This document shows, piece after piece, positions 7,157-18,392 of a DNA stretch of 64,000 nucleotides. The stretch's first letter is position 1. Every line of letters starts with the position of its first letter. The stretch lies in the NCBI GenBank assembly GCA_030262725.1, contig JAJSZS010000011.1:1-64000 (forward strand), given 5' to 3'. Under the pieces are notes generated by a model. The model saw only the letters and a list, made by a program, of their open reading frames with translations, had not been told where the DNA came from and ran no database searches. This DNA comes from Candidatus Desulfofervidus auxilii. Lineage in GTDB: Bacteria > Desulfobacterota > Desulfofervidia > Desulfofervidales > Desulfofervidaceae. Position numbers and translations under genes: made by a program.

Positions 7157-7592
7157 AATTTTTTAAAATTTGTAAAATAATTAAGGTATAAATTCCAGCC
7201 ATTAAATCGTCTAATACAATACCTAATCCCCCACCTATTTTTTCTATTTTTTTTATCGGAAACGGTTTTAGTATATCAAAAAATCGAAAAAAAAGAAAAG
7301 CCCCTAAAATATAAAACCATTTATTAGATGAATTTAAAAGAGCTAACCACATGCCAAGCATCTCATCTATTACTACTTGAGATGGATCTTTTTTCCCAAA
7401 ATATTTTTCTGCCACCTTTGCTGCCAAAATGCCTAAAATAATAGCTAAAATTAAAAACATTATGTAGTAAATAATTGGATTGGGCAAGAAAAAATAAATA
7501 ATAATAGCTAATAAAGCACCATAAGTTCCAGGTGCTCCAGGTAAATAACCTATACCAAATCCTGTAGCTATACATAAAAAAATTTTTTTCAC
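7149..7592 (-). CDS. pgpA: Phosphatidylglycerophosphatase A
   Basis: A 147-residue integral inner-membrane phosphatase that dephosphorylates phosphatidylglycerophosphate in phosphatidylglycerol synthesis. The family signatures are present: GYLPGAPGTYGALLA near the N-terminus, DPSQVVIDEMLGMW in the middle and LDDLMAGIY near the end. About four hydrophobic segments are visible. The gene overlaps both neighbours by a few bases (4 bp with the upstream kinase gene, 8 bp with cinA). Length is normal. Confidence 0.93.
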   Translation of the reverse strand: MKKIFLCIATGFGIGYLPGAPGTYGALLAIIIYFFLPNPIIYYIMFLILAIILGILAAKVAEKYFGKKDPSQVVIDEMLGMWLALLNSSNKWFYILGAFLFFRFFDILKPFPIKKIEKIGGGLGIVLDDLMAGIYTLIILQILKNYG

Positions 7593-9130
7593 TTTAAAAT
7601 ATCTACAATTGCTTGCACACTTGCATCTATCGGATGAGCTGTATTTACTACAATGTGTCTAGGGTCAGTTAATGGTTCAAAATTTCTCTTAAATTCTAAA
7701 AATAAAGCCAAATAACCATTAGAAATATCCTTTCCCATTTTTTCCCTTTCTGCTAAGCGTTTTTTCATAATCTCTTCATCACATTGGCAATAGAGAAACC
7801 AATAAGGGCAATTCATTTTTTCAGCCAAATTTCTTACTTTTTCTCTATATTTTTCTTTACTAAAAGAAGCATCAATAATTACAGAAAAACCATATCTTAA
7901 AACTTCAGAAGCTATTTCAAAAATAGCATCATAAACTTTTTCAATCATCTCTAAAGCATATACTCCCTTTCCAAAAGGCGCATAAAGATGTTTTTCAGGC
8001 TTTACTCCTAAAAGATGCTTACGTACAGCATCAGACCTTATAACTATTGCTCCTATTTTGGCAGCCAAAGCATTAGCAATAGTAGATTTCCCACTACCTA
8101 AAAGTCCTGTTGTGGCTAATAAAAAAGGTTTTTGAGATGAAAGATAGCTATAAGCTAAATTAAAATATTTTTCTGCCCTTTCTTTTGCTTCAGCACGCTG
8201 TTTTGAAGGAATTTCTTTTGAATCTATTTCAAAACTGCTAATTTTACCACGAACATAGGCACGATAAATTTTATAAAAATTCAATACCCCTAAAAGGTTA
8301 AAATCGTTAGTCTGAGTAAGATAAGTATTTAAAAAATAATTTCCAAAAGAAGATGCCTGGCGAAAGTCCAAATCCATTAACAAAAAAGCAACATCAGTTG
8401 CTACATCAGCATAACGGAATCGTTTATTAAACTCAATGCAATCAAGAACATAAATTTTATTATTGTAGTAATAAATATTTCCACAATGAAAATCACCATG
8501 ACCATCTCTAATCCAACCTAAAGAAATGCGTTTTAAAAAGCGCTCTTTTTCATCTTTTAAAAATGAAAAGGAATATTCCTTTAAAGCATTATAAACTTCT
8601 TGAGAGATAGTATATCCTATATATGGAAATGTTTGATCAAAATTTTCTTTAATATTTATCTCTATTTTTTCTGGCAAACCATAGCTTTCAATTTCTTCAT
8701 TTCTCTCTGCTTTAAAATAAAAATCAGCCATAAATTGAGCAATCTCTTTCATAATTGCTGGATTTAATTCACCTTTTTCTAATAATGAAGTCAAACAAGC
8801 TTCTTTTGGCAACTGCTTCATTTTTACAGCATAATCAACAATTTCGCCTTCCCCTCCAAAAAAGAAATTTCCATTTCTTTTTACTACTGGTGTTACCTCT
8901 AGATAAATATCTGGCGAAAGCCTCTTATTTAACCTTAATTCTTCCTCACAAAAATAACGCCTTTTTTCTAAAGTAGTAAAATCTAAAAAACCAAAATCTA
9001 CTGGTTTCTTAATCTTATAAACAAATTCACCGGTTAAAAATATCCAAGAAATATGAGTTTGAATAAGCTTAATGGTTTTTACAGGATGCGGATATGCTGT
9101 GGGTTTTAAAAGTGATTCAATAAATTCCAT
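7589..9130 (-). CDS. Fused aminoglycoside-phosphotransferase-like kinase and P-loop ATPase
   Basis: About 513 residues from ATG 9130. The first 330 residues form a protein-kinase-like APH fold with the catalytic loop HGDFHCGN (211-218) and a downstream DCIEFN metal segment. The last 170 residues form a P-loop nucleotide kinase with GLLGSGKST (342-350) and a following SDAVRK. This fusion (COG2187 plus COG0645) is widespread in proteobacteria but its substrate is unknown. The open frame extends to TTG 9193, but that start has no ribosome binding site and ATG 9130 fits the usual family start better. ATG 9130 itself also lacks a strong ribosome binding site. It is the first gene of the run leading into pgpA and recA. 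Confidence 0.85.
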   Translation of the reverse strand: MEFIESLLKPTAYPHPVKTIKLIQTHISWIFLTGEFVYKIKKPVDFGFLDFTTLEKRRYFCEEELRLNKRLSPDIYLEVTPVVKRNGNFFFGGEGEIVDYAVKMKQLPKEACLTSLLEKGELNPAIMKEIAQFMADFYFKAERNEEIESYGLPEKIEINIKENFDQTFPYIGYTISQEVYNALKEYSFSFLKDEKERFLKRISLGWIRDGHGDFHCGNIYYYNNKIYVLDCIEFNKRFRYADVATDVAFLLMDLDFRQASSFGNYFLNTYLTQTNDFNLLGVLNFYKIYRAYVRGKISSFEIDSKEIPSKQRAEAKERAEKYFNLAYSYLSSQKPFLLATTGLLGSGKSTIANALAAKIGAIVIRSDAVRKHLLGVKPEKHLYAPFGKGVYALEMIEKVYDAIFEIASEVLRYGFSVIIDASFSKEKYREKVRNLAEKMNCPYWFLYCQCDEEIMKKRLAEREKMGKDISNGYLALFLEFKRNFEPLTDPRHIVVNTAHPIDASVQAIVDILK

Positions 9131-9240
9131 GTGCTTTTTATGCCATGTTGACCTAAAAAAGGCAAGTGTAAAACTATTTCTTAAAATTCCCAAACCAAAT
9201 CATCATCTGCAAAAAATACCAATAGGCAGGTATTTCATAT

Positions 9241-10053
9241 TTAACCTCTCTTAAACGCCATATAAACCATCCAACAGGCAATAAAGATGAGGAGATAGCC
9301 AAAATATTTTTTATGTTTCTTTTTGTCAATCTTTACCCCTAATCTTGCCCCTACCTGAGCGCCAGAAAAGACAGCTCCACCTAAAACTAATGCCAATCTA
9401 GGATCAAAATGCCCTACTAATGCATGACCAATAAGACCAGTTAAGGCAGTAATACCAATCATCAAACTAGAAGAGCCAACCGCAATCTTCATGGGCACAC
9501 CACCCAAAAGCACCAGTGCAGGTACTTTGAAAAGCCCACCACCTACTCCAAGCATACCAGCAATAAAACCTGCTAGAATCATAATGGGAATAATAACCAG
9601 CAGATTTAAGTGATACTCAAATTCACCTATTTTACGGTGTAAGCAAAACCAGTGCCTTTTAACGACCGGATAGGTCTTCTCAGCTTCTTGAATAGGCTTA
9701 ATCATAAAATAGGCACCAATGAGCAAAATGCCAGCAAAGACCAGTTTGGAAAACATAGGTGGAAAATATGGAGAAAAATACCCACCTAAAAAGGCTCCTA
9801 AATTGGTAGGTGGTTCAACAATTAAAGCTAACCACCAATCTATCATCTTAGCCTTTTGAAACACCAACATAGCCGAAATAGTAGCAGCTATAATCAAGAC
9901 CTGACTGATAGCTGCTGCTTTATAAAGAGGCAAGCCAAAGGCTAAAAGCATAGGCACATAAATTGCTCCCCCACCCTGACCAAACATCATAAAGATAACT
10001 GAAACACCAAAAAAAACTGCAAATAAAACCCCTATTTGTCCCCAGCTAAGCAT
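9241..10053 (-). CDS. TauE/SafE-family permease
   Basis: A 270-residue membrane protein with about eight hydrophobic helices. Two family repeats are seen: one near residues 10-110 with FGQGGGAIYVPML and one near 155-265 with GMLGVGGGLFKVPAL. Members export sulfite, sulfonates or related anions. The gene follows the ArsR-type regulator by 53 bp on the same strand and both probably share a promoter, suggesting export of a stress-inducing sulfur compound. The substrate is not shown by the sequence. Confidence 0.88.
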   Translation of the reverse strand: MLSWGQIGVLFAVFFGVSVIFMMFGQGGGAIYVPMLLAFGLPLYKAAAISQVLIIAATISAMLVFQKAKMIDWWLALIVEPPTNLGAFLGGYFSPYFPPMFSKLVFAGILLIGAYFMIKPIQEAEKTYPVVKRHWFCLHRKIGEFEYHLNLLVIIPIMILAGFIAGMLGVGGGLFKVPALVLLGGVPMKIAVGSSSLMIGITALTGLIGHALVGHFDPRLALVLGGAVFSGAQVGARLGVKIDKKKHKKYFGYLLIFIACWMVYMAFKRG

Positions 10054-10106
10054 CTTTTATCCCTTATATCCACCCTTAGCTTTTTTTAAACTTCCTAGTG
10101 ATATTT

Positions 10107-10442
10107 TTAATCTCGCAAATTAATCTTCCTTGCCTTTTCAATTAAATCCTTAAGCTCATCTTCCTTTGAAATTTCATCAATAAGTTTTAAAAAAATTGAA
10201 GAAATTTTATTTTTCTTTAAGGTATATATCACCCATTGTCCTTGTCTCCTATTTTCCAAAAAATCTGCTTCTTCTAAAATCCTTAAGTGGCGTGAAACAG
10301 TAGGCTGACTGAGCTTAAGCAATGCCTGCAATTCACAAACACATAATTCCTTTTTTTTAGCAATACAGACTAGCATTTTAAGCCTGCTTTCATCCCCTAA
10401 AGCTTTAAAAGCCTTTATCCATTTTTTTAAACCTTCACCCAT
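10107..10442 (-). CDS. ArsR-family metal- or sulfur-responsive repressor
   Basis: A 111-residue winged-helix protein. ELCVCEL at 33-38 is the metal-box motif with Cys34 and Cys36, as in arsenite and cadmium/lead sensors; the recognition helix is LSQPTVSRHLRIL (44-56). Its promoter at 10472-10500 contains an inverted repeat between the -35 and -10 boxes, a typical autoregulated layout. It precedes the TauE/SafE permease, its likely target. The two Cys could also sense persulfide, as in related regulators. Confidence 0.9.
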   Translation of the reverse strand: MGEGLKKWIKAFKALGDESRLKMLVCIAKKKELCVCELQALLKLSQPTVSRHLRILEEADFLENRRQGQWVIYTLKKNKISSIFLKLIDEISKEDELKDLIEKARKINLRD

Positions 10443-10471
10443 GAGTTTCCCAAAATATTAATTTTTACATA

Positions 10472-10500
10472 TTTATATATCTTTATATATTGGCTGTCAA
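10472..10500 (-). promoter_or_regulatory. Promoter and likely operator of the ArsR-permease pair
   Basis: On the minus strand TTGACA (10500-10495) and TATAAA (10477-10472) are 17 bp apart. The dyad ATATAT-CTTT-ATATAT at 10475-10490 lies over the spacer and -10 box, where a bound repressor would block polymerase. The AT-rich dyad resembles known ArsR-family operators, but the assignment to this regulator is inferred. Bases 10501-10597 hold nothing else recognised. Confidence 0.6.
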
Positions 10501-10597
10501 AAATATCTTTTTCGGGTAGTGTCAATTATTTTATAGGGTTATCTCCCAAATCAAATTGAATATTAAGTACTTCTTAAACCAGAAAAAAGTACAGAGG

Positions 10598-11511
10598 CTA
10601 CAAAAGCAAAAACTTCGTTATTGGAATAACCACAATTTCTTTGTCATCAATTCTAATAATCCCATCTTCTTCCCTGTTTATCAAATAGGCTTTATCAATA
10701 TTAAATAATGAACAAAATTTGAGCAAACCTTTTGTGTCTTTTTTATCTACTTTTTTATTTTTTCTGCTTGTGGCCAAAAAACTTCCTCTTAAATTGCTTG
10801 TCCTTTTTATCAAAAAAGATAACTCCAAATAATTAAGGGCATTCCTTATTGTTTTTTTATGCCTTCCTAAGTTTCTTGAAAGAGCGTCAATGTTTAAAAT
10901 GATTCCAGGATTTTCAAAAATATATTCTGCAAGTATTCTTATTATTTCTGTATCTTCAACTCCAAAACTTTCAGGAATGTCCCTATAGATTATTCTTTCA
11001 ATTACCAATTCCCTTATATATTCCTTTATTTCTCTTTCATCCATTGGCAGCGTTTCAGGAAACCCTTTTAAAACAAATTCATTTAGCAAAATGCTAAGTT
11101 TTCTTTTATGTATCTCAAAATCTTCTTTTTCCGGTATTTTTTCATTTTTAAATGCTAAGAACTCTTTAAAGGTTAAAGGGCTTAAGTAATGAAATAAATC
11201 TTTTTGTTTTTTATCCTGTCCTTTAAGATTTTTTCCTCATATTCTTTTATAATCTTGTCTAAATCTTCTTTTTCTATATCAAACGAAAAATAAAATATTT
11301 CCTTTGGATTAGTTCCAGAAGTGAGCAAATGGTCTATAAGATGTTGCATTAATACGGTTTTTCCAACCCTACGCAAGCCAATTATTACATCTACCTGCTT
11401 TCTAGATAAATACTCCTTTAAAGTTTCAAACAAAAATCTTCTTCTTAGAGATTTTATCTCCTTTTCTATACTTCCAGTTTCCCACCAAGGATTAAATTCT
11501 GCAATTTCCAT
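10598..11511 (-). pseudogene. Decayed AAA ATPase of the DUF4143 type, internal deletion and frameshift
   Basis: Two frames read as parts of one ATP-binding protein. The N-terminal part (11511-11182) has MEIAEFNPWWETG, then the Walker A segment GLRRVGKTVLMQHL and FYFSFD. It runs as far as KNKKIYFI and stops. The C-terminal part (readable from about 11200 down to 10598) begins HYLSPLTFKEFLAF and contains the winged DUF4143 region ending in VIPITKFLLL. In intact relatives about 50 residues lie between these points, carrying the Walker B DEIQ, the sensor and the arginine region. Their absence plus the frame change point to a deletion of roughly 150 bp near 11190. The product could not hydrolyse ATP normally. 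Confidence 0.75.
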
Positions 11512-11523
11512 ATTAGGTTATTA

Positions 11524-11566
11524 TAGTATCCTAATATTTAAATTTTTAGGATATTGTAGTATCCTA
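11524..11566. promoter_or_regulatory. Repeated operator-like element upstream of the decayed ATPase
   Basis: TAGTATCCTA occurs at 11524-11533 and 11557-11566, 33 bp apart, and its partial inverse TTAGGATA lies between them at 11546-11553. TATAAT boxes on the minus strand at 11520-11525 and 11566-11571 adjoin the repeats. The arrangement suggests a protein-binding site over the promoter. The binding protein is unknown. Confidence 0.45.
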
Positions 11567-11632
11567 TTATACCATATTCAAATTTTTCTTCAATAACCAT
11601 CAAATTTTGTGGTTTTAAATTATCTTTTTCTG

Positions 11633-11652
11633 AAATCCTTAAGTAAGGATTT
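11633..11652. repeat. Perfect hairpin just after the Mrr-domain gene
   Basis: Nine-base arms AAATCCTTA and TAAGGATTT flank a two-base loop and touch the stop codon of the gene at 11651. On the coding (minus) strand no U-tract follows, so it is not a classical intrinsic terminator. It may protect the 3' end of the message. Confidence 0.5.
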
Positions 11653-12829
11653 ATTCAAAATCGTATTTCGTTTTTATATACTCTAATTTTTCAGAAATTT
11701 CGCTTATTTCCCATTCAATTTCTTTTTTACGTGCATTCAATTCTTCTAATTCTTTTATTAGTTCTTTCTTTTCTTCTATTAAATCTGCATCAGGCAGGAA
11801 TTTTAGCAATCTTTGTTTGTTTATTAGTCCTACATTTAATTTTTTTGCTAATTTTATTGCACTATCAGTAAAATAAGAATTTGTTATAACCCAAGCTTCT
11901 TCACAATCATAAAAATCCTTACCGCTATATACTTCCTGAACAGCCTTTATACCTACTGGATCCGCAGTGCCTTTGACCTGCACAGCTATTTTTTTATCCC
12001 CGTGTTTTAAAACTAGATCTACTCCATAATCTCCTGAACTTGGTGTCTTTTCTACAAAATATCCTAATGTTTTAAAACAATCATAAAGACAATTTTCAAA
12101 TTCAACTCCCCTTAAACTTTCAAGATAATCAGGATGGATTCGCTTCTTTATTAAAGCTTGCTCAATATTTTGCAAAACCGCAGTCTTATGATATATGCGC
12201 TTTTGTATTTCATCAAACTTTTTTCTTAGTACTTGAAGTTTCTTTTTCAAAAAAGGATAAGAAGCTTTTTCATTAATTTCCCACTCCTTTCCTTCTATTT
12301 CTTGCTTCCAAGTTTTCTTCTTTTCATCCCATATAATATAAATTGAAAGACAGAGACCAATAACAATAAGGACAGTAAAAAGGTCTTTATCTGACATTTT
12401 AAGATCAAAACCGAATATACTGAGCAACAATGCAGCAACACCAAGAAGTAAAAGCGCAACCAACATGCAACCAGGAAGAGAAAATACAAGTGTAAATAGG
12501 TCGTATATTTCAAGTCTTTTAAGAAAATCATCTAGACTAAAATTAGCTTTTAATTTATATTTGTAAAGTACATAAGAGGTAGTTAACTTTGGAAATTTTT
12601 CTTCTAAGTTACGTAAATAATGAGAAAGCTTGTCATATTCATAGTCAGAAATTACAGGGTCATTTAGAATATAATAACGCCAATCATGGTAAGTAATGAT
12701 TTCCTGCAAAATACTAACAATCTGCTTAGCCTTATCTAAGGAAAGATTTTTTATTGGGTGAGTTTTTATAAATTGTAAAAATTTCTTTGTTGCATTTAAA
12801 AGATAAGCTTCTTCTTTTTGAGAATACAT
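11651..12829 (-). CDS. Membrane protein with LigA Ia-like domain and Mrr-type nuclease domain
   Basis: A 392-residue protein from ATG 12829 with an unusual domain order. Residues about 34-83 match the NMN-binding Ia domain of NAD-dependent DNA ligase: Tyr47-His48, then YY 52-53, Asp57-Pro58, ISD 60-62 and EYD 64-66. No ligase core follows. Two hydrophobic helices lie at about 111-141 and 150-167. A charged coiled region leads into an Mrr-type restriction endonuclease fold (about 238-345) with GVEFEN, catalytic Asp271 and Q-V-K 284-286, then AWVITNSYF. A coiled coil (350-386) ends it. The longer frame starts at TTG 12895, which is the -35 box of the promoter, so ATG 12829 is chosen. The reading as a membrane-anchored nuclease sensing a nucleotide is inference. 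Confidence 0.7.
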   Translation of the reverse strand: MYSQKEEAYLLNATKKFLQFIKTHPIKNLSLDKAKQIVSILQEIITYHDWRYYILNDPVISDYEYDKLSHYLRNLEEKFPKLTTSYVLYKYKLKANFSLDDFLKRLEIYDLFTLVFSLPGCMLVALLLLGVAALLLSIFGFDLKMSDKDLFTVLIVIGLCLSIYIIWDEKKKTWKQEIEGKEWEINEKASYPFLKKKLQVLRKKFDEIQKRIYHKTAVLQNIEQALIKKRIHPDYLESLRGVEFENCLYDCFKTLGYFVEKTPSSGDYGVDLVLKHGDKKIAVQVKGTADPVGIKAVQEVYSGKDFYDCEEAWVITNSYFTDSAIKLAKKLNVGLINKQRLLKFLPDADLIEEKKELIKELEELNARKKEIEWEISEISEKLEYIKTKYDFE

Positions 12830-12865
12830 TTTTCCATTATTTTTGGAAATCACAACTATTAAAAA

Positions 12866-12895
12866 TTTATAAATAAACACTAATATTATTGTCAA
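12866..12895 (-). promoter_or_regulatory. Promoter of the LigA Ia-Mrr gene
   Basis: On the minus strand TTGACA (12895-12890) and TATAAA (12871-12866) are 18 bp apart, giving a short leader of about 30 bases before ATG 12829. A second TTGACA lies on the plus strand at 12908-12913, so TGTCAAT and ATTGACA form a 7-bp inverted repeat with a 10-bp spacer between the divergent genes. No convincing -10 box pairs with the plus-strand copy. Confidence 0.5.
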
Positions 12896-13027
12896 TGATA
12901 AAATTAATTGACATATAATTATATTTATGTTTCTTATTAAGAAAAATTATTAAGAAAAAATATTTATAAAAGTTACTATAAATGTTAAGAATTTGCGATT
13001 TTTATTATTTTTAGAAAATTATTAAAT

Positions 13028-13366
13028 ATGACAACTGCTTTATTTGATGCTTTTTGCAATTACCTTGCAAAGTTTCAAAAGATAATTCAACAAAGTGAAG
13101 GGAAAAGAAACCTGTTATCTCTAGTTAATAAACCTACACAACTACGAGTTTTTGTTGATGAAGCAGAGCGTCAACAAGAGTTTCAAAGTTTATTGATAGC
13201 TACCAAGTTTGAATTTTCTATTGAAGAGAGGAAATGTAGACAAGCTATCAAAAATTTCTTTCGTAATTCTAGTTGCTATTTGGATTTGTTTAATGGCAAA
13301 AAAATAAACATAAAGAGACTCTTTGACCTTATTGCAAAGAATTCCAAAAACAAAGTGATCAAATAA
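13028..13366 (+). CDS. Upstream fragment of a frameshifted HEPN-domain gene
   Basis: A 112-codon frame with no family match on its own. It starts at ATG 13028 without a clear ribosome binding site. Near its end the neighbouring frame becomes open: after the stop at 13324 it reads KEFQKQSDQIKLLALMEFVYF without a break into the next coding region. Joining LFDLIAK to EFQKQSD by a one-base backward shift near 13339 restores one protein of about 476 residues. The sequence TCC AAA AAC at 13343-13351 is one base off the classic A-AAA-AAC slippery heptamer. It may therefore be a mutation, a sequencing error or a programmed -1 shift. Confidence 0.5.
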   Translation: MTTALFDAFCNYLAKFQKIIQQSEGKRNLLSLVNKPTQLRVFVDEAERQQEFQSLLIATKFEFSIEERKCRQAIKNFFRNSSCYLDLFNGKKINIKRLFDLIAKNSKNKVIK

Positions 13367-13380
13367 AATTACTTGCCCTA

Positions 13381-14457
13381 ATGGAATTTGTTTATTTTGC
13401 TGAAGAATCAATAGATTTTGGTCTGTTTCAAATCCGAAAGTTTTCTATAGAAGAATTAAACACAATTCTGAGAAATGAGATAAATAAAGTTTTTTATCCT
13501 TGGGCCTATATAGATGAATTATATAAATTAGCTAACTATTGGTTTATCTGTGTAACGGTTCCGCAATATGAATTAATATTAAGTCACAGCATCAAAATTA
13601 AGCCAGGGGCAGAAGTTGAAATAATAGAACCTATTGAAATAAATTATACTAAATATCCTAAACCTTTGGAATCTATTCTAAAATACCTAACTTTGTTCAG
13701 ATGGGAGCAAATTGCACGGGCAGGTGAATTTAATTTTAATATTCCTTTAATCTTACAAATAAAAGAAAGCCTTCTTTCTTCTCCAAATAACGCTCCTGAG
13801 CTTTTATTTTTAGAGACAGAAATTGTTGAAGATCCAAATACTCATAAGGAATTTGAAGTTCCAATAATTAAATTTTACTTAGATGCTTCTGAGACTGTCC
13901 AATTCAAAAAATTTATAAATGACATCAAAAATATTTTAGACAATCTTAAAATTGAGAATAAATGGAGATTCTTAGAAATTGCTCAAAACTATCTTATAAA
14001 AGCTTTCTTTTCTGAAGGATTAGAACAACTATTGTGGCATATTACAGTAATAGAAGCTCTATTAGGAGAAGAGAAACAGGGTATCACAGAATATTTGGCC
14101 AAGCGTATTGCCACTATTTTAGGCAGTACTGAGAGGGAAAAGAAAAAACTTAGAAAAGATTTTAAAAAATTATATGATTTTCGGAGTGCCTTAGTGCATG
14201 GTAGAAGTATTAAAGAAACTGACACAACACACTTATATTATGCCCGGAGTTTTGCGAGACGACTTCTTCTTTGGTTTTTGCATTATCTTAATGCTATTCA
14301 AACTGGCCTTCCTAAAGATAAATCAGACGAAGATATTCCTGAACGTGAAGATTTGCTTAAATTAATAGATTTGGACAAAAATAGCAGAATCCGTATGCGA
14401 TGGATGATAGATAAGATACCAGAAGACTTCCCAAATGTTTCTGAATGGAAGGAATAA
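13381..14457 (+). CDS. HEPN-domain putative ribonuclease (downstream part of split gene)
   Basis: This 358-codon frame carries an alpha/beta N-terminal region (about 1-190) of unknown function and an Apea-like HEPN domain (about 195-305). The HEPN motif R-x4-H is Arg268 to His273 in DFRSALVHG, the catalytic signature of HEPN RNases used in toxins and abortive-infection systems. The coding frame is open upstream of ATG 13381 back to 13327, which supports fusion to the preceding fragment. It lies divergent to the Mrr-domain gene, in an accessory island. No membrane segment is evident. RNase activity is inferred from the motif. Confidence 0.7.
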   Translation: MEFVYFAEESIDFGLFQIRKFSIEELNTILRNEINKVFYPWAYIDELYKLANYWFICVTVPQYELILSHSIKIKPGAEVEIIEPIEINYTKYPKPLESILKYLTLFRWEQIARAGEFNFNIPLILQIKESLLSSPNNAPELLFLETEIVEDPNTHKEFEVPIIKFYLDASETVQFKKFINDIKNILDNLKIENKWRFLEIAQNYLIKAFFSEGLEQLLWHITVIEALLGEEKQGITEYLAKRIATILGSTEREKKKLRKDFKKLYDFRSALVHGRSIKETDTTHLYYARSFARRLLLWFLHYLNAIQTGLPKDKSDEDIPEREDLLKLIDLDKNSRIRMRWMIDKIPEDFPNVSEWKE

Positions 14458-14622
14458 AAAATAAAATAAAAAAATTAAGGGAAGGTGGGTTTGCAATATA
14501 ACTTTTTAGTTATCTTATTTTTAAAAGAAAGTATTAGGCAATTCTTAAGCCAACAGTAATTGCTGGACTTAAGTTGTGGCATGATAAAAATTTCTTGAAA
14601 GAAATACAAAATACTGGTATTT

Positions 14623-14736
14623 TTGACAAGAGAAAAAAATATTATAGGAAAAGTAGAGCAAATTAAACAGAAGTTATTAAGATTACAAGAACTCAAGAGT
14701 AAGAAAAATGATTACTTTAACCGCTTATCGGATTAA
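14623..14736 (+). pseudogene. Possible HepT (DUF86) N-terminal remnant
   Basis: The frame from TTG 14623 encodes 37 residues reading IIGKVEQIKQKLLRLQEL and ending in DYFNRLSD. This resembles the first helix of HepT/DUF86 HEPN toxins, which normally run to about 140 residues. It is cut off and overlaps the lipoprotein start. An overlapping frame upstream (HDKNFLKEIQNTGIF) could be the tail of a lost partner, but I cannot identify it. The call rests on resemblance only. Apart from this, 14458-14707 holds nothing recognised. Confidence 0.3.
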
Positions 14737-15136
14737 CTTAATTTTTAGTTTATTTTCAATATTGTTTGGTATTAGTGGTTGTGTCTACACAGCTACAGTT
14801 TATAATCTTGATACTGGTGAAGTTATTTATGCGAAGTTTCAGAATTATTGGACAGGGCATGGGAAAATAACAGCTACAATGCCAGATGGTGAGAAATTGG
14901 AGGGGAAATATAGTACGGTAAGTGGTATGAATATGAAGTCAGTAGTTGCTGCCTTTCCATGGGCACAAACATATAGTTTTTATTTTAGTCAACCTGGTAT
15001 GCAGTTTGGAACGGCAACTTTAACTGGAGACAAAGGCACTGTTGTAGAGATTATATATGTAGTTGATCCTTGGTCTTCTCATGGCTGGGGCGTTGGTCGT
15101 GATAATAAAGGCAACCGATATCGGGTTCAATTCTAG
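14708..15136 (+). CDS. Putative lipoprotein of unknown function
   Basis: A 142-residue protein with a lipoprotein signal: a hydrophobic stretch ending in the lipobox GISGC, with Cys25 as the lipidated residue. The mature part of about 118 residues is rich in Gly, Tyr and Thr and reads as beta strands, with TATMPDGEKLEGKYSTVSG and a Trp/Gly-rich tail ending YRVQF. It would be anchored to the inner or outer membrane. I do not recognise a named family. There is no operon partner: the next gene, nrdD, starts 232 bp on with its own promoter. Confidence 0.7.
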   Translation: MITLTAYRINLIFSLFSILFGISGCVYTATVYNLDTGEVIYAKFQNYWTGHGKITATMPDGEKLEGKYSTVSGMNMKSVVAAFPWAQTYSFYFSQPGMQFGTATLTGDKGTVVEIIYVVDPWSSHGWGVGRDNKGNRYRVQF

Positions 15137-15368: not shown

Positions 15369-18300
15369 ATGCAAAGTGAAATAAAAACAATTATTAAGAG
15401 AGATGGGCGTGAAGTGCCTTTTGATATTGGTCGAATTCAGCGTGCCATTTTTAAGGCAGCCCAGGCTGTTGGTGGTAGTGATCAAGTAACAGCATGGCGA
15501 TTGGCTATCCAGGTATATGAATATTTGATAAAAGCAGGAAATTTTAAGCCTACAGTAGAAGAAGTACAGGATGTTGTAGAAAAAATACTTATTGAAAATG
15601 GCCATGCTAAAACAGCCAAGGCATATATTCTTTACAGAGATAAGCGTACTCAGATTAGAAATGCCAAAGCATTACTGCTTAATATTGAAAAAACAATAAG
15701 TGAATATGTAAATCAGATTGATTGGCGTATTAAAGAAAATGCGAATGTCGATTACTCTCATTCTGGTCTTATGCTTCATACTGCTGGTTCAGTAATTGCA
15801 AATTATGTATTAAATAATGTTTATACTCCTGAAATAAGAGATGCCCATGTTCATGGCTTTTTCCATATTCATGATTTAGGTATGGGTACTTGTGGATACT
15901 GTGCTGGTTGGTCATTAAAACAATTGCTTTTAGAAGGTTTTAATGGTCCAAAAAATAAGGTTGCAGCTGGGCCAGCAAAACACTTTGATACAGCCCTTGG
16001 TCAGATGGTAAATTTTTTAGGTACTTTACAAAATGAATGGGCAGGAGCAATGGCCTTTAATAATTTTGATACATTGCTTGCACCTTATGTAAGAAGAGAT
16101 AAATTATCTTATAAAGAAGTTAAACAAGGTATTCAACAGTTTATATTCTCTGTAAATACTACTTCTCGATGGGGTGGGCAATGTGTTTCTTCTGATACAG
16201 AAATTTTAACAAAAGAAGGATGGAAGACATATAAAGAGCTTAAAGAAGGGGAGTTAATTGCTACTTTTAATTTACAAACACATGAACTTGAGTATCAACC
16301 AATAGAAAAACTAAATGTTTATAACTATGAAGGTGAACTACTTAGGTTTGTAGGTAGAAAGGGAGAAATTCTTGTAACGCCTAATCATCGGATAGTTAGA
16401 AAAAAATTTAATAAAAATGAATATACAATTACCCCTGCCATAGAGCTGACCAATATAAAAACATCTTTTTCTATTCCAGCAGCAGGTGAGTATAAAGAAG
16501 GTAATGAGGTCTGTGAAGATGAATTTATCCAGCTTTGTGCTTGGATTATTGCTGAAGGAGTCATACCATCAAGTGAAGAAAGGATAGTAATCTATCAATC
16601 AGAAACTAAGAATCCAATGAACTGTGAGAGGATAAGGCAACTTTTGCAAAAATTAAATATTGCTTGGTATGAGAAAAAGAGGACAAAACACGGGTTTAAT
16701 CCAGATGGAACTACTATAGAATTTGTCATAAACAGACCTAATTCACGTATATTAAAAGAAATGCTTAAAAATAGTAAAAATAGGCTTCCTATGTTTGTAA
16801 AAAATACTACAAGTCGACAAAAAAGACTCTTTTTAGAAGAATATATCCTAGCTGATGGCTATATAGAGACAGATAATTATGAAAGAAAAAACATATATGT
16901 AAAATCCTCCACATTGAGAGATGAAATTTTAAAACTTATTGTAGAAGCAGGGTTTAGCGCTACATTTAAAGAAAATAATAATGGTGTATCTACTATAAGG
17001 ATTTATAAAAACAAAAATTTTACAGTTAATTTTGCTGGTAAATTTCCTTATAAAGGTGTTGTTTGGTGTCCTACAGTAAAAAATAATACCTTTTTTGCCA
17101 GAAGAAATAATATAGTCTTTGTTACCGGTAATTCACCTTTTACTAATATTACTCTTGATTTTACCATTCCAGATCATCTTAAAAAAGAAGCAGTAGTTTG
17201 GGGTGGCAAAATATTAGATGAGACATATGCAGATTATCAAAAAGAAGTAGATATGATTAATAAAGCTTTTATTGAGATTATGATTGAAGGTGATTATCAG
17301 GGAAGAATCTTTTCATTTCCTATTCCTACTTATAATGTTACAAAGGAGTTTGATTGGGAGAGTGAAAATGCAAAACTGCTTTTTCAAATGACAGCCAAAT
17401 ATGGTACACCTTATTTTCAAAACTTCATTAATTCTGATTTAAATCCAGCTGATGTACGTAGTATGTGCTGTCGATTAACAATGAATTTGAGAGAATTAAA
17501 GAAAAAAACAGGTGGATTATTTGGAGCAGGGGATGCAACAGGTTCTATTGGAGTAGTTACTCTTAATATGCCACGCCTTGCTTATTTAAGTAAAGGAGAT
17601 GTAGAAAAATTTTTTAAATTAATAGAAAGATACATGTTCCTTGCTAAAGTGTCTCTTGAAATAAAACGTAAAATGCTTGAGAATAATTTGAAAAAGGGAC
17701 TTTATCCTTATACTGCTCGTTATTTGTGTACTTTTAAAAATCATTTTTCTACTATTGGACTTGTTGGTATGAATGAAGCTTGTCTCAATTTGCTTGGAGA
17801 AGACATTGCTTCTGAAAAAGGAAGAAAACTTGCTTTAGCTGTCCTTGATTTTATGCGTAAAAAAATCATTGAGTTTCAAGAAGAAACAGGTAATCTTTAT
17901 AATCTTGAAGCTACACCAGCAGAAGGCACTAGTTATCGTTTAGCAAAAATTGATAAAAATGAATTGCCTGGTATTATTACTGCTGGTACTGATGATGCAC
18001 CTTATTATACTAATTCCACTCAATTGCCAGTAGGTTATACTGATGATCCCATTTTGGCTTTAGAGCTTCAGGAAGAACTTCAGACAAAATATACAGGTGG
18101 TACAGTTTTTCATCTCTTTCTCGGAGAAGCATTACCAGATGCTGAATCTTGTAAACTTTTAGTAAAACGTATCCTTTCTCGATATCGCATTCCCTATCTT
18201 TCCATCACCCCTACTTTTAGTGTATGTCCAAAACATGGATATCTTACAGGTGAACATTGGCATTGTCCAAAGTGTGGTGAAGAATGTGAGGTTTATTCAC

Positions 18301-18392
18301 GAGTAGTGGGATATTATCGGCCAATAAGTAATTGGAATAAAGGAAAACAGCAAGAATATAGAGAAAGAAGAGCTTTTAAAATTTATGCTTAA
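15369..18392 (+). CDS. nrdD: Anaerobic ribonucleoside-triphosphate reductase with an intein
   Basis: Class III reductase that makes dNTPs under anoxia, 1007 codons. An N-terminal ATP-cone (about 5-95, KRDGREVPFDIGRIQRAI) gives allosteric control. An intein occupies residues 272-588; removing it joins WGGQ to SPFTN and leaves 690 residues, the normal NrdD size. The C-terminal four-Cys zinc site reads CPKHGY then CPKCGEEC. The glycyl-radical site is Gly981 in RVVGYYRPI (Gly664 after splicing). AGGAGG at 15356-15361 precedes ATG 15369. The stop overlaps nrdG. Function requires splicing, so the intein must be active or trans-splicing tolerated. NrdR boxes imply repression when dNTP pools are high. 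Confidence 0.96.
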   Translation: MQSEIKTIIKRDGREVPFDIGRIQRAIFKAAQAVGGSDQVTAWRLAIQVYEYLIKAGNFKPTVEEVQDVVEKILIENGHAKTAKAYILYRDKRTQIRNAKALLLNIEKTISEYVNQIDWRIKENANVDYSHSGLMLHTAGSVIANYVLNNVYTPEIRDAHVHGFFHIHDLGMGTCGYCAGWSLKQLLLEGFNGPKNKVAAGPAKHFDTALGQMVNFLGTLQNEWAGAMAFNNFDTLLAPYVRRDKLSYKEVKQGIQQFIFSVNTTSRWGGQCVSSDTEILTKEGWKTYKELKEGELIATFNLQTHELEYQPIEKLNVYNYEGELLRFVGRKGEILVTPNHRIVRKKFNKNEYTITPAIELTNIKTSFSIPAAGEYKEGNEVCEDEFIQLCAWIIAEGVIPSSEERIVIYQSETKNPMNCERIRQLLQKLNIAWYEKKRTKHGFNPDGTTIEFVINRPNSRILKEMLKNSKNRLPMFVKNTTSRQKRLFLEEYILADGYIETDNYERKNIYVKSSTLRDEILKLIVEAGFSATFKENNNGVSTIRIYKNKNFTVNFAGKFPYKGVVWCPTVKNNTFFARRNNIVFVTGNSPFTNITLDFTIPDHLKKEAVVWGGKILDETYADYQKEVDMINKAFIEIMIEGDYQGRIFSFPIPTYNVTKEFDWESENAKLLFQMTAKYGTPYFQNFINSDLNPADVRSMCCRLTMNLRELKKKTGGLFGAGDATGSIGVVTLNMPRLAYLSKGDVEKFFKLIERYMFLAKVSLEIKRKMLENNLKKGLYPYTARYLCTFKNHFSTIGLVGMNEACLNLLGEDIASEKGRKLALAVLDFMRKKIIEFQEETGNLYNLEATPAEGTSYRLAKIDKNELPGIITAGTDDAPYYTNSTQLPVGYTDDPILALELQEELQTKYTGGTVFHLFLGEALPDAESCKLLVKRILSRYRIPYLSITPTFSVCPKHGYLTGEHWHCPKCGEECEVYSRVVGYYRPISNWNKGKQQEYRERRAFKIYA
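16182..17132 (+). mobile_element. Intein in nrdD with a LAGLIDADG-type endonuclease region
   Basis: A 317-residue in-frame insertion. It begins with Cys in CVSSDTEILTKEGWKTYKEL (block A) and has ILVTPNHRIV (block B). AWIIAEG and EEYILADGYIE match the two DOD endonuclease motifs. It ends VFVTGN followed by Ser, so the downstream nucleophile is Ser. The penultimate residue is Gly, where most inteins have His; splicing-competent inteins with this change are known. The insertion site, inside the conserved GGQSPF segment of NrdD, is a typical active-site hot spot. A DOD endonuclease suggests past or present homing ability. Confidence 0.93.

Follow-up and report, generated by a model that had tools for sequence, protein, structure and literature searches.

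An NAD-dependent ligase subdomain Ia joined to a predicted membrane nuclease of the Mrr type in Candidatus Desulfofervidus auxilii

The window analyzed here is a stretch of 64,000 nucleotides from Candidatus Desulfofervidus auxilii, and all positions refer to it. A gene for a protein of 392 amino acids, referred to below as the fusion, lies between a recA-thpR-cinA-pgpA block and nrdD-nrdG, with its ATG at 12829 and its stop codon at 11651–11653. Both flanking blocks are kept in relatives, and the stretch 7589–15136 is mostly not common to them. The fusion is a real and well-anchored chimera known from a single example, in which familiar parts stand in a new order (Table 1): subdomain Ia of the NAD-dependent ligase LigA, two predicted membrane helices, a helical stalk, an Mrr nuclease domain, and a coiled coil.

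Table 1. Positions of the fusion gene, its parts, and the divergent neighboring genes in the window
Feature	Positions	Strand	Basis or remark
Whole gene, 392 aa	11651..12829	-	order Ia, two membrane helices, stalk, Mrr, coiled coil
Residues 1–84, captured LigA N-terminus (lineage-specific N-terminal extension and subdomain Ia)	12578..12829	-	ligA alignments, PF22745, fold match
Residues 52–66, predicted NMN-site stretch YYILNDPVISDYEYD	12632..12676	-	alignments; residue roles presumed from background
Residues 85–110, linker without LigA similarity, low model confidence	12500..12577	-	alignment and model
Predicted membrane helix 1, about residues 111–138	12416..12499	-	hydropathy peak; helix in model
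Predicted membrane helix 2, about residues 149–168	12326..12385	-	hydropathy peak and model
Long helix or coiled-coil stalk, residues 169–235	12125..12325	-	model
Mrr_cat nuclease domain, residues 237–344	11798..12121	-	Pfam PF04471; Foldseek
Predicted nuclease site stretch: E245, D271, Q284-x-K286	11972..12097	-	invariant among aligned relatives
C-terminal coiled coil, residues 346–392, common to the nearest Mrr relative (L033)	11654..11794	-	comparison with L033 and model
Divergent neighbors, 112 aa and 358 aa, the latter with one RSALVH (HEPN-like Rx4H motif)	13028..14457	+	frames, Pfam, motif

Of the two divergent neighbors, the longer has no Pfam match and is perhaps HEPN-like, as judged by its motif; G001 was the only genome with a match, a weak one, to this two-gene unit (E = 6e-6), and PHROG also matches it weakly. 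Downstream of the fusion gene, an AAA_14/DUF4143 ATPase (10598–11511) is split in two by frame changes and is likely a pseudogene. The anaerobic ribonucleotide reductase gene nrdD (15369–18392) carries an intein-like insert with LAGLIDADG motifs at about residues 272–586, which is absent from the relatives G003 and G004. No conserved partner, NADase, or defense operon was identified next to the fusion gene by Pfam and PADLOC-type profile matches, and no RNA families or tRNAs occur near it.

The N-terminal part of the fusion is a true homolog of LigA by sequence comparison and by model. Pfam Nlig-Ia (PF22745) matches residues 36–90 with 30.1 bits (E = 8e-7), above its curated cut-off of 27 bits. 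The NCBIfam LigA models cover residues 23–85 only, scoring 28.8–46.4 bits against equivalog cut-offs of 369–1051, and neither the Pfam nor the NCBIfam scan found the NTase KxDG, OB, HhH, or BRCT parts of LigA in the fusion. A complete LigA is encoded separately in the host genome, on contig C9, and the N-terminus of this protein is 52% identical to residues 1–84 of the fusion (E = 8.5e-27), which rules out a chance motif match. Identity is higher with LigAs of other genomes of the family (58–71%), and is highest with that of G004, another Ca. Desulfofervidaceae genome (71%, E = 3.4e-34).

Similarity to LigA extends from the ligA start codon to about codon 84, where Ia ends; the DNA upstream of the fusion ATG and beyond codon 84 is unrelated to ligA. 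The aligned part includes an N-terminal extension of ~25 residues that the family's LigAs share and that has no match in most LigAs of the phylum. A degenerate ligA copy was ruled out, as an intact nuclease frame follows the point at which similarity stops. In a tree of the Ia segment, the fusion falls inside the clade of the Desulfofervidaceae family and its order (support 100/99); by path length its nearest neighbor is G004, and its own terminal branch is longer. Because the similarity runs from the start codon to the end of Ia, the comparisons identify the first 84 residues as a domain captured from the ligA of a relative within the family; the tree placement and the higher identity to G004 point to such a relative rather than to the host's present ligA.

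A model of residues 1–110 (pLDDT 80.6) resembles LigA Ia in fold. In a PDB search, ranks 1–27 were all NAD-dependent ligases (rmsd 0.6–2.5 Å, probability 0.96–1.00), with formal E-values of only 0.009–0.43 because the domain is small; the Ia subdomains of Thermus filiformis (1dgs) and Escherichia coli (2owo) LigA superpose with an rmsd of about 1 Å. The full-length model (pLDDT 75.9, pTM 0.37) contains the Ia helices, a helix at 147–228 that runs from the second membrane segment into the stalk, the Mrr fold, and a C-terminal helix, with the relative placement of Ia and Mrr being unreliable. PD-(D/E)XK proteins are among its Foldseek matches (AF1548, MspJI, AspBHI, and Hjc, with Avs4 and Cdn1 lower down).

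The first-pass annotation had placed this gene on the same strand and at the same coordinates, with a LigA Ia-like N-terminal third lacking the ligase core, two membrane helices, and an Mrr fold with D...QxK, and had proposed structure prediction and profile comparison of the N-terminal region. All of these assignments hold. Its series of ordered Ia motifs stands in part. Profile alignment with E. coli LigA (2owo) brings Y22, H23, D32, Y35, and D36, which we take to be NMN-site residues, onto Y52, Y53, D62, Y65, and D66 of the fusion; the roles of these residues in the E. coli enzyme were reportedly described by Sriskanda and Shuman in 2002. The ISD and EYD motifs thus match NMN-site positions (D62, Y65, and D66), but two of the others had been misassigned. 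The ‘YH’ is Y47-H48 and not the NMN-binding pair, because E. coli Y22-H23 align with Y52-Y53, and the ‘DxP’ is actually N-D-P (56–58). At each of the five NMN-site positions, the fusion has the residue found in the family's own LigAs. Every LigA of the Desulfofervidaceae, as well as that of T. filiformis, likewise has tyrosine in place of histidine at the position equivalent to residue 53, and the predicted NMN site therefore looks intact.

Evidence for constraint on the captured Ia is mixed and only suggestive. In a neutral simulation matched to the 58/82 identity with G004 LigA, at least 20 of 22 NMN-core residues were retained without a stop codon at P = 0.002, the limits of the 22-residue core having been chosen by the analyst. 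A branch codon model, which rests on 82 codons with nearly saturated silent sites, gave an omega of 0.13–0.30 for the fused Ia. Fixing omega at 1 was worse by only 0.1–0.7 lnL, and setting it equal to that of LigA was worse by 1–2.3 log units, such that the fused Ia appears somewhat relaxed relative to LigA. The simulation favors constraint, whereas the codon model cannot reject neutrality.

The Mrr domain is matched by Mrr_cat (PF04471) with 86.2 bits (E = 2e-24), compared with a cut-off of 21 bits, and a PDB sequence search with the Mrr profile returned only spurious dUTPase matches. Loss of the catalytic residues in relatives had been named beforehand as evidence against the proposed reading; E245, D271, Q284, and K286 are invariant among the aligned Mrr relatives. 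The nearest of these, in G382 of the same phylum, is about 48–56% identical over the Mrr part (dN 0.41, dS 1.66, dN/dS about 0.25), values that indicate purifying selection on this domain. The locus of this relative (L033, 355–1974) has its 5' half cut off beside an IS3-type transposase pair.

Proteins of about 175–290 amino acids with membrane helices followed by Mrr (2TM-Mrr) occur on IMG/VR contigs and Bacillota plasmids. Examples from Bacillota plasmids and prophages are named ‘restriction endonuclease’ (L160–L169, Priestia WP_098287625.1). These proteins have Mrr_cat with the same E, D, and QxK residues and are 35–50% identical to the fusion over Mrr. The fusion shares their two membrane helices followed by Mrr and has a longer stalk, whereas the Bacillota proteins begin at the membrane helices; none of the relatives read from the IMG/VR contigs or Bacillota plasmids has an Ia domain. 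On these alignments, the 2TM-Mrr half is an ordinary module that is widespread on Bacillota plasmids and prophages.

A second Ia-Mrr fusion was not found in the searched genomes, the genome_contigs scans, viral contigs, phages, or plasmids, and searches by peptide patterns recovered no full-length relatives from genome_contigs or viral_contigs. Among 80 kept loci with the Ia pattern in genome_contigs, all but three have the ligase KxDG downstream in frame, mostly in frames of 660–730 amino acids, and the remaining three are truncated at contig ends or interrupted by a frame break. In 247 genomes of the phylum, Ia lies, among the roughly 150 matches listed, in LigA-sized frames or fragments. 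A second Ia copy occurs, also among the matches listed, in three genomes besides the host, and none of these copies is a fusion: those in G128 and G230 belong to second LigA-type proteins, and G189 has a solo Nlig-Ia frame (L141, 1330–1779) that is phage-like and 149 amino acids long. The five plasmid matches examined are LigA or a frame-split LigA.

Viral contigs carry full ligases and solo Ia frames of about 75–125 amino acids that lack the ligase core and keep the YY...ISDYEYD motif (L178, L179, L184–L188, L190, L194, L195, and L197–L199), and Ia also matches two short PHROG families, 104 and 119 positions long (PHROG 6466 and 18456). A 2022 survey described a standalone Nlig-Ia family in 81 phages, proposed for it a role as an NAD+ sensor, and regarded the separation of Ia from the ligase core as without precedent in cellular genomes (PMC9503650). 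The phage proteins, such as ECBP2_0056, thus resemble the fusion in having Ia with its NMN-site residues and no ligase core, but they are viral and stand alone, whereas the fusion is cellular, derives from a ligA of the family, and is joined to a nuclease.

The first-pass annotation knew of no described system with this order of domains, and we likewise found none with Ia, two membrane helices, and Mrr in the literature searched. LigA itself shares the start codon and the N-terminal extension, but it continues into NTase, OB, zinc, HhH, and BRCT parts where the fusion has membrane helices and a nuclease. Similarity to the nuclease domains of PADLOC PDC-S02 (E = 6e-11) and ZorD1 (E = 1e-17) is limited to the Mrr end, and neither a helicase nor Zorya partners are present here. 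The N-terminal winged-helix DNA-binding domain of the Type IV enzyme E. coli Mrr was not found by Pfam, the N-terminus of the fusion being Ia and membrane helices instead. SNIPE, a membrane nuclease with a variable, host-like N-terminus that cuts injected phage DNA (PMC13190303), is likewise a membrane-anchored single-protein nuclease. It has another nuclease fold and carries its membrane segment at the very N-terminus, and its DUF4041 and GIY-YIG domains were not found in the fusion by Pfam; it is an analog of the fusion and not a homolog.

The first-pass annotation had suggested that a nucleotide-sensing membrane nuclease reading NAD, NMN, or a related signal would fit an anti-phage effector. 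We consider gating of the nuclease by NAD+ or NMN to be the best specific hypothesis, and put the probability of a membrane Mrr DNase gated in this way through the captured Ia, with a role in defense or abortive infection, at roughly one in three. In this scenario, LigA Ia would have been added as a cytoplasmic N-terminal regulatory module to a PD-(D/E)XK (Mrr) DNase with the widespread 2TM-Mrr architecture. The enzyme, probably oligomeric, would reside at the inner membrane with both of its ends in the cytoplasm; the basic segment EKKKTWK directly after the second predicted membrane helix is consistent with this topology. The ligand of Ia would be NAD+, bound through its NMN half, or NMN itself, and the trigger could be a change in this ligand, for example loss of NAD+ or a rise in NMN during infection or stress. 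The signal would then travel along the helical stalk, which connects the membrane hairpin with the nuclease, and free the Mrr domain for DNA cleavage; genome defense or abortive infection is the most likely role.

Support for gating comes from the homology and fold of Ia, the use of Ia by phages without the ligase core, the intact Mrr site and the purifying selection on it, the kept NMN-site positions, and the retention of the NMN core in the neutral simulation. The frequency of the 2TM-Mrr module on plasmids and prophages, and the existence of SNIPE as a membrane-bound nuclease defense, speak for it as well. It is weakened by the single example, the failure to reject omega = 1, the lack of an NADase or defense neighbor, and the unreliable placement of Ia relative to Mrr. 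In addition, LigA holds NAD+ between Ia and the NTase domain, and Ia alone may therefore bind its ligand weakly. Subdomain 1a of LigA binds the NMN moiety and closes over the NTase domain, and data from Haemophilus influenzae suggest that NAD+ is first recognized there (PMC5052709). A more far-reaching and somewhat less probable claim is that a cell here employs ligase subdomain Ia as a receptor, which would be the first such case, with a sensor drawn from the family's ligA in an NAD+/NMN-gated membrane nuclease.

Next in rank is the possibility that recombination merely provided a 2TM-Mrr gene with the start region of a ligA, that is, a start codon and a soluble N-terminus without a role for ligand, and that the protein acts as an ordinary 2TM-Mrr nuclease. 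The occurrence of the fusion in one genome only, the many phage and plasmid 2TM-Mrr proteins that lack Ia, and a codon model that does not reject a neutral Ia branch all favor this explanation, which is credible although on balance improbable. Against it, the NMN core is retained beyond the neutral simulation, given the analyst's choice of core, and the break coincides with the end of a folded subdomain. Third in rank, and unlikely, is that the LigA surface of Ia is what matters: its target would be a partner of LigA, or else a phage protein by which LigA is attacked or recruited, and binding would bring the nuclease to phage DNA or trigger it, with the nucleotide site being incidental. A donor ligA from the same bacterial family is what is expected of a decoy of a local protein. 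The best-kept residues, however, are those of the NMN site, there is a single example, and we know of no phage protein that targets LigA Ia. A precedent for such adaptors may exist in SNIPE, whose very variable N-termini are similar to host proteins and are possible adaptors (PMC13190303).

A nucleotide sensor serving NAD or DNA-damage homeostasis or plasmid exclusion, and not phage defense, would fit the lack of firmly identified defense genes beside the fusion gene. To our knowledge, no function has been tested for any 2TM-Mrr protein. We nonetheless give this role little credence, since Mrr-type and membrane nucleases are best known from defense and the gene lies in a variable region flanked by conserved blocks. 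Finally, a ligA fragment could have been misjoined to an unrelated nuclease gene during assembly, as the host genome is a draft in 72 contigs, the remaining genomes of the family are MAGs, and the fusion is known from one copy only. Such an artifact is very improbable. It requires that two misjoins, separated by 250 bp, left the frame intact, the sequence upstream of the ATG is not a ligA flank, and the flanking recA-cinA and nrdD-nrdG blocks are common to the family. Moreover, no ligA found exceeds 72% identity to the Ia DNA, which is thus a diverged copy of its own.

The fusion is a clear cellular case of Ia separated from the ligase core, with a donor gene that can be traced. If Ia is an adaptor, the protein would be a nuclease that borrows the surface of a host protein, as SNIPE may do. 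If instead Ia gates the nuclease, the fusion would represent a new kind of receptor that reads NAD or NMN, and would suggest a reason for the solo Ia proteins of phages. In that case, these phage proteins might counter such sensors, either by docking on them or by competing for the same ligand.
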